Shown: in pieces, positions 17,936 through 20,438 of the stretch
Numbering within the stretch: position 1 is the first letter of the stretch
Layout of the letters: every line of letters starts with the position of its first letter
Assembly (NCBI RefSeq): GCF_003386665.1
Contig: NZ_QTUB01000001.1
Coordinates: 2,976,001 to 3,040,000 of the forward strand
Direction of reading: 5' to 3'
Length of the DNA stretch: 64,000 nucleotides
Source: Xenorhabdus cabanillasii
Lineage (GTDB): Bacteria > Pseudomonadota > Gammaproteobacteria > Enterobacterales > Enterobacteriaceae
Made by a program: the position numbers and the translations under genes
Notes under the pieces: generated by a model
The model's database searches: none
What the model saw: the letters and a program-made list of their open reading frames with translations, nothing else
Told to the model about the DNA's origin: nothing

Positions 17936-18319
17936 TCAGTCTGACATTTTTGTTCCTTGATGGAATCTTAGTTGCCATGTACCAGATGCCGATAACTGCC
18001 AAATGGATGAACGTAGCACTTTGTTATATGGATGTCCTGACTTATCCATTTCATAAGATTGATAAGTAAGAAGTACAATATTTTTATCCAAATTCTGCAT
18101 ATTAAAGTTTTTTGAAAAAATCTGTGAAATAGTACTTTTTTCTTCTTTTAATGCATCTTCCACAATTTTTTTAGTATAAACATAATCTGACTTTCCTATT
18201 TCCAGAAAATGATCATGTAAAATGGTATTTATCCATTTATTATCATTTCTTTTTTCTCTATGCAGGCTTACTTCAAGACTTTTTATCAATGCAAAAATAG
18301 TTGAGTTTTCCTGCTTCAT
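17936..18319 (-). CDS. NTF2-like (DUF4440/SnoaL-type) small protein
   Basis: A 127-residue protein with the ordinary layout of DUF4440 proteins: an N-terminal helix, HDHFLEIGKSDYVYTKKIVE, then KNIVLLTYQSYE and the closing strands LRSSIWQLSASGTWQLRFHQ. The fold is a small cone-shaped barrel used as a binding pocket or isomerase; no specific reaction can be given. AAGGTG lies four bases before the start. It is 88 bases after the polyamine fusion gene and on the same strand, so it is probably the third gene of that operon. It may bind a polyamine-related ligand, but that is only a guess from position. Confidence 0.7.
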   Translation of the reverse strand: MKQENSTIFALIKSLEVSLHREKRNDNKWINTILHDHFLEIGKSDYVYTKKIVEDALKEEKSTISQIFSKNFNMQNLDKNIVLLTYQSYEMDKSGHPYNKVLRSSIWQLSASGTWQLRFHQGTKMSD

Positions 18320-18407: not shown

Positions 18408-19913
18408 TTAAAAACCTCGTTGTAGTATTTTACACTCATACTCTTGTGAATTTAATTGGCTTTGTAGCTGTTTCATAAGAGTCTCATGATGCTCAAAATC
18501 ACTACATATTAGTAAATCAAGAGCTGCATAGTTATATTCAGGCCAGGTATGTATAGTAAAATGTGACTCTGCTAATATCACAGCTCCACTAACTCCCCTG
18601 AATTTGGATTGATGAAAATGGCAATTGATAATATTAAACTTACACTTATCAGCAATATCAATCATCATGGTTTCGATAGCTGATACAGACTTTAATTTAT
18701 CTGTTTCACAATTTTTCATCCCTATAACAAGATGAGTACCGAGCTGTTTTGTGCCTGTGGAGAGACTGATTTTTTCTTGTCCACGGTATTGGAACTTAGT
18801 CCCTTTACATCTATTGCAACCGACCTCGATAAGCTGTTCTATTGTTAATATGCTTTTTCCATATCCAATAGTAAGTTGGTTATCACATGATTTGCATTGA
18901 TAAAATTTTACACGAGGATTAATTTCTCCGGTATATATTTTGTTGGAGTAAGAACTATCTTCTGAAATCATAGAATATGAACTTTGTGTAACAGAGAGAA
19001 TGTATAGATCACTGACATTCCCAATAATACTTCCACCATGGTATTGATTGAATTGTGGATAAATATTTTTGATAAAAAGGTTTTGATCGCTAAACAATTT
19101 TTGTACTTCTTGGTTTTCTTTAGGTTTTTTTTGTCCAAATGATAGTAATATTTCACTACCGTCATTTTTAGCAAAACTAATTGCCCGTGATAAAAATAAC
19201 TTTAACCCACTGAAAGTATATGGTGGATCTGTCAAGATAACGTCAAAGTATTTAGCATATTTATCTGAGTGTTTCAGGTCTACGTATTCAGTATTAATGA
19301 TAAAATTATTTTCTTTTGATACCTCTTTAATAAACTCCAATAGTTCTTTATCTATGTCTTTGACATAAATATTATCTTTGCAATAATTGCCTAGTTTTTT
19401 AAATGCCATCATTAAAGCTAACGATGTTAAATCATCATCCCCCAAAAAGAGAATTTTTTGTTTAAATACTATTGGATTATTCAGTAATAACATGACCCTG
19501 CGTATTGATGTATCCAGAGTCGCATGGGCTTGGTCTAACAGTACATTGACGCGTGGACGTTTAGCATATATAGGTGAAAGTAAATTGACTAATTCATCTT
19601 TAAAATTTCTATTTTTTTCTTTTGAAAATAATGACCTATATAATTCAGTGTCAACCAATTTGTAATTAAGTTCATTCTGTACAAACTGGATGCCTGATGG
19701 AGTTAATTTAAAAACACCTTTTTTATCAGCGTAATTTGTTTTTATTAACTCTTTTTTGAATGCAGATACTATAGGAATAGGTAATCCTGTTTTTAACGAG
19801 AGATCTTTATTTGAAGTGCGCTTTTCCAAATATAAGTGTACAAATAATTTTTCCAGTACTTCAATCGGTTGAGACAAATTCATATTGTTTTTTATAGTGT
19901 AGAGTATATTCAT
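18408..19913 (-). CDS. Fusion: BpsA-like branched-polyamine synthase + class 1b AdoMet decarboxylase
   Basis: A 501-residue two-enzyme protein. Residues about 1-335 match the BpsA family (N4-bis(aminopropyl)spermidine synthase): an N-terminal winged-helix-like part, the nucleotide/AdoMet loop FLGDDDLTSLAL near 152-163 and LTDPPYTFSG near 225. A CxxC...CxxC pair (CKSC near 338, CNRC near 367) forms a possible zinc ribbon linker. Residues about 378-501 are a SpeD domain of class 1b type: GVSGAVILAESHFTIHTWPE has the self-cleavage Glu-Ser, the following His, and the later Cys in DLLICSD. SpeD would make the aminopropyl donor used by BpsA. Enteric SpeD is class 1a, so this part is foreign to the lineage. 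AAGAGA precedes ATG 19913. Some SpeD relatives decarboxylate ornithine or arginine instead, which cannot be excluded. Confidence 0.82.
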   Translation of the reverse strand: MNILYTIKNNMNLSQPIEVLEKLFVHLYLEKRTSNKDLSLKTGLPIPIVSAFKKELIKTNYADKKGVFKLTPSGIQFVQNELNYKLVDTELYRSLFSKEKNRNFKDELVNLLSPIYAKRPRVNVLLDQAHATLDTSIRRVMLLLNNPIVFKQKILFLGDDDLTSLALMMAFKKLGNYCKDNIYVKDIDKELLEFIKEVSKENNFIINTEYVDLKHSDKYAKYFDVILTDPPYTFSGLKLFLSRAISFAKNDGSEILLSFGQKKPKENQEVQKLFSDQNLFIKNIYPQFNQYHGGSIIGNVSDLYILSVTQSSYSMISEDSSYSNKIYTGEINPRVKFYQCKSCDNQLTIGYGKSILTIEQLIEVGCNRCKGTKFQYRGQEKISLSTGTKQLGTHLVIGMKNCETDKLKSVSAIETMMIDIADKCKFNIINCHFHQSKFRGVSGAVILAESHFTIHTWPEYNYAALDLLICSDFEHHETLMKQLQSQLNSQEYECKILQRGF

Positions 19914-19924
19914 TGTAATCTCTT

Positions 19925-20438
19925 TTATATTTTCCTAGCCATATTGGTGATATAATCGAAGTGGTTTTTTATTAATTCAGTTGTTAAAATTCCTGTCAAC
20001 GCCATTGCAGTCAGTCCCTCTAAAATAAGGAAGGTTTGTTCTGCCTGCTTTTGATTAAAATCAGTTAATTTAAGAATGATTTTTATATTGGATTCATATA
20101 TTTCACGTGCAATACTATTATTGTCTGTCTGTGATTCCTGGATCATAAATTCATATCCGGCAACTCGGATAGTTTTACGGATATTTAATAATTCTGTTTT
20201 TTCATGTTCCAGATATTCAATAAATGTACTAAAATTACGTTCTGATTTCTGTAAGTTCATTTGCCGAACAAGCGCGATAAAAAATATCTTTAGTGGATTG
20301 GAAATAGCGATAAACACCACCACGACTGATTTCACATTCAGTAATAATATCAGTCATTGTAACTTGACTATACCCTTTTTTAATAAAGACTTTGTATGCT
20401 TGTTCTAAAATATATTGATGCTTTTTCTGTGCTTTCAT
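19925..20438 (-). pseudogene. TetR-family regulator of the polyamine operon, +1 frameshift in T6
   Basis: Frame one (start 20438) encodes a TetR HTH: YILEQAYKVFIKKGYSQVTM, then EISRGGVYRYFQSTKDIF. It runs out of frame at coding-strand T6 (20280-20285) and stops at 20235. The next frame continues the helical ligand-binding part (ALVRQMNLQKSERNF to NMARKI) to 19925. With five T the protein would be one chain of about 170 residues, normal for TetR. It is 11 bases upstream of the fusion gene, so it probably regulated it. If the shift is real, the operon may be constitutively expressed. Sequencing error is an alternative. Confidence 0.78.

Follow-up and report, generated by a model that had tools for sequence, protein, structure and literature searches.

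A BpsA-like aminopropyltransferase fused to a class 1b AdoMet decarboxylase in Xenorhabdus cabanillasii, a candidate substitute for SpeE in other hosts

A gene for a putative bifunctional polyamine enzyme lies in a 64,000-nucleotide stretch (hereafter the window) of the genome of Xenorhabdus cabanillasii, an insect-associated enteric bacterium (NCBI RefSeq assembly GCF_003386665.1, contig NZ_QTUB01000001.1, positions 2,976,001 to 3,040,000). The fusion gene (18408..19913, minus strand) is a single open reading frame (ORF) of 501 amino acids, and profile, motif, and fold comparisons divide its product into a winged helix (residues about 1-100), a BpsA-like aminopropyltransferase catalytic domain (18900..19613, minus strand; residues 101-338), a ribbon with two cysteine pairs (18750..18899, minus strand; residues 339-388; CxxC at 340-343 and 366-369), and a class 1b S-adenosylmethionine (AdoMet) decarboxylase domain, SpeD (18411..18749, minus strand; residues 389-501), with ESHFTIHTWPE at 449. 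The transferase domain displays GDDD at 158-161, TDPPYT at 228-233, FNQY at 288-291, and IYTGE at 326-330. Pfam BpsA_C matches residues 111-338 (E 4.9e-38, 131.2 bits, cut-off 27) and AdoMet_dc residues 394-500 (E 7.6e-29, 100.6 bits, cut-off 25), and NCBIfam TIGR03330 (SAM_DCase_Bsu, Bacillus type) scores 107.7 bits, above its cut-off of 75.65. An initial annotation had proposed one 501-residue chain joining a BpsA-like synthase to a class 1b SpeD in an enteric host, and these searches bear out each part. A profile search up to E 0.1 matched no Spermine_synth domain of the SpeE type (PF01564/PF17284) in the fusion. The best protein match (97% identity) is from Xenorhabdus sp. Flor, and databases name the protein adenosylmethionine decarboxylase.

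For the transferase half, BpsA, the N4-bis(aminopropyl)spermidine synthase (Thermococcus kodakarensis, 5xnc; Thermus thermophilus, 6j27), is both the best-scoring curated family in profile searches and the nearest solved fold, with METTL5 ranking next; 2qm3, second among the fold matches, carries the title 'predicted methyltransferase', and we count it as a BpsA-type protein because its match parallels that of 5xnc. The review PMC12979288 describes the GDDD of BpsA as holding the aminopropyl group of decarboxylated AdoMet (dcSAM), places Asp225, Glu259, Tyr290, and Tyr316 on the acceptor side, and assigns carriage of the aminopropyl group, in a ping-pong reaction, to a C-terminal acidic cluster of the T. 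kodakarensis enzyme (Tk-BpsA; Glu339-Glu345). Aligned with Tk-BpsA, the fusion keeps GDDD, which is invariant across a 65-row alignment, and the equivalents of Asp225 (D229) and Tyr290 (Y291); Tyr316 falls outside the aligned part. It differs in its added SpeD, in reading DPPYT (at 229) where Tk-BpsA reads DPPET, in having Lys263 at the position of Glu259, and in carrying the CxxC ribbon in place of the acidic carrier cluster, residues 331-388 holding just D344, E359, E363, and E380, scattered through the ribbon. Stand-alone BpsA-like proteins from Bacillota, Bathyarchaeota, and Promethearchaeota, named 'bis-aminopropyl spermidine synthase family protein' or 'predicted methyltransferase' in databases, share GDDD, DPPYT or a close variant, and a cysteine-pair tail (CxC or CxxC, then CxxC), and the acidic tail cluster is absent in the rows aligned. 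They differ from the fusion in having no SpeD, and some lie within polyketide synthase (PKS)/nonribosomal peptide synthetase (NRPS) operons. Their like tail rules out the CxxC pair as a linker specific to the fusion, the role first suggested for it; the fusions of Vagococcus silagei and Erysipelothrix anatis have no CxxC/CxxC at all. Because the acidic cluster is absent, Glu259 is replaced by lysine, and DPPYT stands for DPPET, the subfamily is, judged by alignment, a relative of BpsA and not a proven BpsA.

The SpeD half has a fold like that of the class 1b AdoMet decarboxylase of Thermotoga maritima (1tlu/1vr7; root-mean-square deviation 1.7 over 113 residues) and shares with it the Glu-Ser cleavage site and the equivalents of His68 and Cys83, but forms the C-terminal part of a larger chain. 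The window copy keeps E449, S450, H455, and C470, the last three corresponding to Ser63, His68, and Cys83. The Phe-x-Pro-Tyr segment that precedes GVSG is altered in the window's clade; S436, F438, and R439 stand in the window at positions that are usually Phe, Pro, and Trp/Tyr in the family, the Phe being what we take to be an adenine contact in the T. maritima enzyme. Position 438 is Pro in 45 of the 50 rows with a residue there and Phe in the window; the proline of HTWPE is kept, either position being a candidate for the proline that PMC10407285 (Fig. 8) uses to tell AdoMet from arginine or ornithine as substrate. Across 19 rows of the Xenorhabdus clade, GDDD, DPPY, Y291, and Y327 are kept throughout (19/19), whereas the SpeD catalytic Cys (C470) is lost in 4/19 and the cleavage-site Glu in 3/19, with E449G and C470Y in the X. 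innexi and X. stockiae rows. The window and Flor proteins differ at 13 residues: six in 1-80, none in 81-343, one at 344, and six in the SpeD domain, including the His after the pyruvoyl Ser, which is altered in Flor. This amounts to 6/113 for SpeD versus 0/240 for the BpsA core (Fisher p 0.001), for a split chosen after the differences were seen. The rows of the window, X. innexi, and X. stockiae share 82% identity in the BpsA core (median, minimum 77) and 73% in SpeD. The median ratio of nonsynonymous to synonymous substitution rates (dN/dS) is 0.06-0.20 in each of four domains in three clades, at dS values mostly ~1 and thus near saturation; in the window's clade it is 0.13 for SpeD and 0.12 for the BpsA core. 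Since dN/dS is low in all domains and clades, the whole fusion protein is still under selection. Within the window's clade, persistence of the BpsA motifs alongside accruing SpeD changes leads us to conclude that it is the transferase whose function is conserved, the SpeD attached to it possibly being weak or inactive. The host genome, one 4.34-Mb contig, also encodes a class 1a speD (951792-952169) adjoining speE domains (952469-953011), both on the minus strand, as well as an intact OKR_DC_1-type decarboxylase (3738675-3740024) and a broken one (2170828-2171261). The 'self-contained' pathway of the initial annotation is doubtful here, in that the SpeD half is eroding in this clade and the host has its own class 1a speD/speE.

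A scan of genome contigs retrieved 282 relatives, of which the best 80 were kept; with the window and one interrupted copy, the set came to 82 rows. Script labels (41 fused, 11 adjacent, 30 neither) were corrected for L050 (a fusion into which a transposase-like element has inserted), L086 (a fusion containing a stop), and L123 (with SpeD next door), yielding 43 fused (two broken), 11 adjacent, and 28 stand-alone, shares that are not representative of the family at large, as the query alignment consisted mostly of fusions and so inflates the fused share and under-counts stand-alone forms. Within the best 80 of the 282, the relatives that are fused to SpeD or have its gene next door come from Bacillota, some Bacteroidota, and Bathyarchaeota. 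Fusion hosts include Enterococcus, Vagococcus, Pediococcus, Erysipelothrix, Lysinibacillus, Bacillus and Cytobacillus kin, clostridial metagenome-assembled genomes (MAGs), and Dysgonomonas, while adjacent BpsA-like/SpeD pairs were observed in Tissierella, Metaclostridioides, Halanaerobium, Clostridium, Anaerocolumna, Siminovitchia, and Bathyarchaeota. With BpsA relatives in many mesophilic Bacillota, a mesophilic host is in itself no oddity, contrary to what had been supposed.

The co-occurrence of these proteins with canonical SpeE was examined in 38 genomes hand-chosen from the loci to span hosts: 18 fused (including the broken L086), 11 adjacent, 6 stand-alone, and 3 Xenorhabdus. Of these, 3/18 fused, 1/11 adjacent, 6/6 stand-alone, and 3/3 Xenorhabdus genomes have Spermine_synt_N. 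By profile search, canonical SpeE is absent from 25 of the 29 sampled non-Xenorhabdus genomes with a fused or adjacent pair, and in all 25 the fused or adjacent domain is the sole AdoMet_dc match. Fifteen of the 25 have neither PF01564 nor NspC above cut-off, and an OKR_DC_1 decarboxylase is found at E <= 1e-50 in 13, nine of these among the fifteen. On the simplest reading, the pair fills the role of SpeE in such genomes, presumably making a triamine from a diamine.

Several points weigh against this substitution. PF01564 scores above cut-off in 8 of the 25 SpeE-less genomes (best 1.6e-29, weaker than the SpeE matches where Spermine_synt_N is present), NspC does so in two, both Dysgonomonadaceae with the fusion, and SpeE is present in four paired genomes. 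In the six genomes nearest Xenorhabdus (Enterococcus, Vagococcus, Pediococcus, Erysipelothrix), no strong match to OKR_DC_1 points to a source of diamine. SpeD pairing and SpeE loss provide just two phylogenetically independent contrasts; the Fisher p of 1.3e-4 (SpeE in 4/29 paired versus 6/6 stand-alone) ignores descent, and we do not lean on it. The absences rest on profile searches, in some cases of MAGs. Spermidine import, if present, would leave spermidine as acceptor, and in Xenorhabdus the acceptor could well be spermidine, since SpeE is present there. To our knowledge, enzymatic activity has been established for no member of the subfamily.

Taking both sides together, we hold, with slightly better than even confidence, that the fusion combines a BpsA-fold aminopropyltransferase and a class 1b AdoMet decarboxylase in one chain, was borne into Xenorhabdus on a cassette, uses a linear amine, and substitutes for SpeE in SpeE-less hosts. 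The SpeD half would self-cleave at E449-S450 to generate the pyruvoyl group and decarboxylate AdoMet to dcSAM, which, possibly by channelling, would come to occupy the GDDD pocket of the BpsA half; the aminopropyl group would then pass to a simple linear amine, either spermidine or a diamine such as putrescine. Hosts without SpeE would rely on the fusion enzyme to fill its role, and in Xenorhabdus it would supplement the native SpeD/SpeE pathway; in the window's clade, the BpsA half would be the constrained part and the SpeD half an eroding one, with dcSAM probably supplied by the chromosomal SpeD. More tentatively, and at somewhat less than an even chance, SpeD-paired BpsA-like proteins may represent a second, non-SpeE kind of spermidine-type synthase, one that replaces SpeE in many Bacillota and perhaps Bathyarchaeota, accepts a diamine without an acidic covalent carrier, and, as a single- or two-gene module in some cases with its own TetR, entered an enteric genus of insect pathogens.

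A true branched-polyamine synthase (EC 2.5.1.128), which would aminopropylate the secondary amine of spermidine, SpeE-made or imported, to give N4-aminopropylspermidine and higher products in a mesophile, appears rather unlikely. It would fit BpsA as nearest solved fold and best curated family, the retained GDDD and equivalents of Tk D225 and Y290, the spermidine available through SpeE in Xenorhabdus, and the two Dysgonomonadaceae that have the fusion and NspC without SpeE. The missing carrier cluster, Lys263, and the absence of canonical SpeE from 25 of the 29 carriers argue against it, as does the consistent ascription of branched polyamines to thermophiles and hyperthermophiles in PMC12979288. 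A branched product, one of the options given in the initial annotation, is on these grounds not supported. DPPY resembles the N6-adenine methyltransferase motif, and a weak N6-adenineMlase match, together with METTL5 as next fold, might point to an RNA or DNA methyltransferase in the N-terminal part; however, PF10237 (N6-adenineMlase) reaches 17.2 bits (cut-off 23.2) against the 131 of BpsA_C, GDDD is invariant, and pairing with SpeD recurs. The methyltransferase reading was accordingly rejected on scores, fold ranking, and SpeD linkage. As for the C-terminal part, neofunctionalised SpeD enzymes (arginine/ornithine decarboxylases) exist and were sought in genomes lacking spermidine synthase, according to PMC10407285, but such an activity here would leave the BpsA partner in the 25 SpeE-less genomes with no dcSAM source found, since they have no other AdoMet_dc domain, and would make the repeated pairing hard to explain; we consider either reassignment very improbable. 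The case is evenly balanced for a SpeD half that, in the window's clade, is poor at making dcSAM and owes any retention to a structural or regulatory role, with the BpsA half using dcSAM from the chromosomal class 1a SpeD. The altered Phe-x-Pro-Trp/Tyr segment in the window and its relatives, the E449G and C470Y replacements, the skew of the Flor differences toward SpeD, and the native speD and speE speak for such decay; intact E449, S450, H455, and C470 in the window and a SpeD dN/dS still about that of the BpsA core speak against it.

The remaining alternative, that the fusion supplies a polyamine unit for an antibiotic or other secondary metabolite, is improbable, though it draws on recurrent gene neighbourhoods. 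In five Paenibacillus loci (L124, L129, L135, L137, L138), a PKS/NRPS gene (~2160 aa) is followed by a stand-alone BpsA-like gene, a GNAT gene, and a gene of one BLAST cluster, which in L137 encodes a HAD protein, FkbH-like by eye; a polyamine-bearing natural product from such loci is possible (Pfam was run on L137, L084, L116, and L142). Seven Xenorhabdus regions (L039, L043, L047, L049, L051, L053, L054) likewise have the fusion adjoining a PKS/NRPS BLAST-cluster gene, with a differing other flank, and in six of the seven a desaturase-cluster gene and a small XcnM-like gene lie in between, a xenocoumacin-like arrangement. The desaturase and small gene resemble XcnN and XcnM of the xenocoumacin cluster; this naming rests on gene order and on PMC5688692 and PMC5055758, and in L049, on which Pfam was run, the small gene had no match. 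Against the metabolite reading, no PKS/NRPS gene was found among the neighbours of the window copy, the PKS neighbours in Xenorhabdus are convergent with a variable other flank, the genus is rich in PKS/NRPS clusters, and the xenocoumacin units listed in the passage on these compounds are arginine, leucine, and acetate only. Apart from these, L116 and L142 have GNAT plus HAD beside the BpsA-like gene, and in L084 and L085 the SpeD-fused form is followed by GNAT and two further proteins, which have no Pfam match in L084.

Among known systems, Ca. Pelagibacter offers the closest parallel to the architecture: according to PMC11107197, its AdoMetDC-aminopropyltransferase fusions produced spermidine and spermine/thermospermine in E. 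coli and likewise combine a class 1b AdoMetDC and an aminopropyltransferase in one chain. Unlike in the Xenorhabdus fusion, the AdoMetDC there is N-terminal; we take the transferase to be SpeE-type, not BpsA, hence a separate origin. In searches of the open-licence PubMed Central literature, no title or abstract opening listed described a BpsA-SpeD fusion and no paper combining BpsA, AdoMetDC, and fusion was found, the AdoMetDC-aminopropyltransferase fusions described there being those of Ca. Pelagibacter; the word 'BpsA' is absent from PMC11107197 and PMC10407285, and 'fusion' from PMC12979288. If the favoured SpeE-substitute model is true, a group of genomes seemingly unable to make spermidine would possess a one-protein route that has gone unrecognised, a family classed with branched, thermophile-only polyamines would work in mesophiles, and proteins named 'predicted methyltransferase' or 'adenosylmethionine decarboxylase' would need renaming. 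Gene fusion and operon pairing also offer a handle on the stand-alone members in Paenibacillus PKS/NRPS clusters.

The fusion had been thought to have arrived by transfer, and both the tree and a travelling regulator gene agree. In a careful tree of 41 rows, the Xenorhabdus copies group with Enterococcus, Vagococcus, Pediococcus, and Erysipelothrix (support 100/99), and a quick tree of all 82 rows recovers the same grouping (26 rows, support 95); at the node joining both groups the program warns of long branches meeting, and the root was not inferred. A TetR protein 43-45% identical over about 165 residues is encoded immediately upstream of the fusion, at a distance of 36 bases in Vagococcus silagei and 17 bases in Erysipelothrix anatis, as in Xenorhabdus, where the TetR and fusion genes overlap by a few bases or stand 12 apart, so the two are an old pair that moved together as a two-gene cassette, with TetR presumably repressing the fusion. 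The ancestor of the fusion probably reached Xenorhabdus from a Lactobacillales/Erysipelothrix-like lineage, a direction that we infer because the spread in Bacillota is wider and GC is low (fusion 31%, TetR pieces 31%, window 41%). Two carriers, Enterococcus larvae and Vagococcus allomyrinae, come from insect larvae by name, which may hint at the donor habitat. No plasmid or phage vehicle is claimed. No plasmid record covers 80% of the query, and one record labelled 'Bacteriophage sp.' (MT839461.1, 4.3 kb, human faeces) carries a full-length fusion (coverage 100%, 34% identity). In Siminovitchia fordii, a regulator-like gene, MarR type by eye, stands 3 bases upstream of the BpsA/SpeD pair (L123:7543-7983), so BpsA/SpeD modules may have other dedicated regulators.

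Surveying relatives for the fusion, as the initial annotation had advised, recovered it well beyond the window's bacterium, to which it is therefore not unique. Among 30 genomes of Xenorhabdus, the gene is full-length in 21 (twice in one), reduced to broken pieces in four, and without a match in five; further copies lie in Bacillota and some Bacteroidota. In a family sample, 6 of 295 genomes matched, and the sole full-length matches were four from Xenorhabdus itself, the window's included. Copies within the genus occupy several sites: the window's, the PKS-adjacent site, one beside genes that we take to be frmA/frmB-like, and others. Transposase-like ORFs break up a second copy that one genome carries (L050). 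Loss is frequent at the window's kind of site, since L058-L061 hold broken fusion pieces there and L062 has remnants near it.

The window's TetR-family gene is itself broken, as initially noted: the N-terminal helix-turn-helix part (20235..20438, minus strand; TetR_N E 1.1e-13) and the C-terminal part (19925..20335, minus strand) lie in different frames, and unbroken homologues of 170-185 aa occupy the same place in L044, L045, L046, and L050. The gene is likewise in pieces in X. beddingii (L056/L080), and no TetR ORF is seen in L036 and L037, two close relatives. An NTF2-like (DUF4440) gene (17936..18319, minus strand; E 4.2e-8), a neighbour at the window's site in Xenorhabdus, had been assigned to the same operon. 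It is not conserved there: a convergent GNAT gene stands between it and the fusion in most relatives with the window's site, and it is missing from the neighbours listed for L109 and L111. Its membership in the transferred cassette is thus unsupported; it may have arrived separately, being AT-rich like the fusion (30% GC). The order at the window's site is LysR/EamA, TetR, fusion, convergent GNAT, NTF2, and amino-acid permease.
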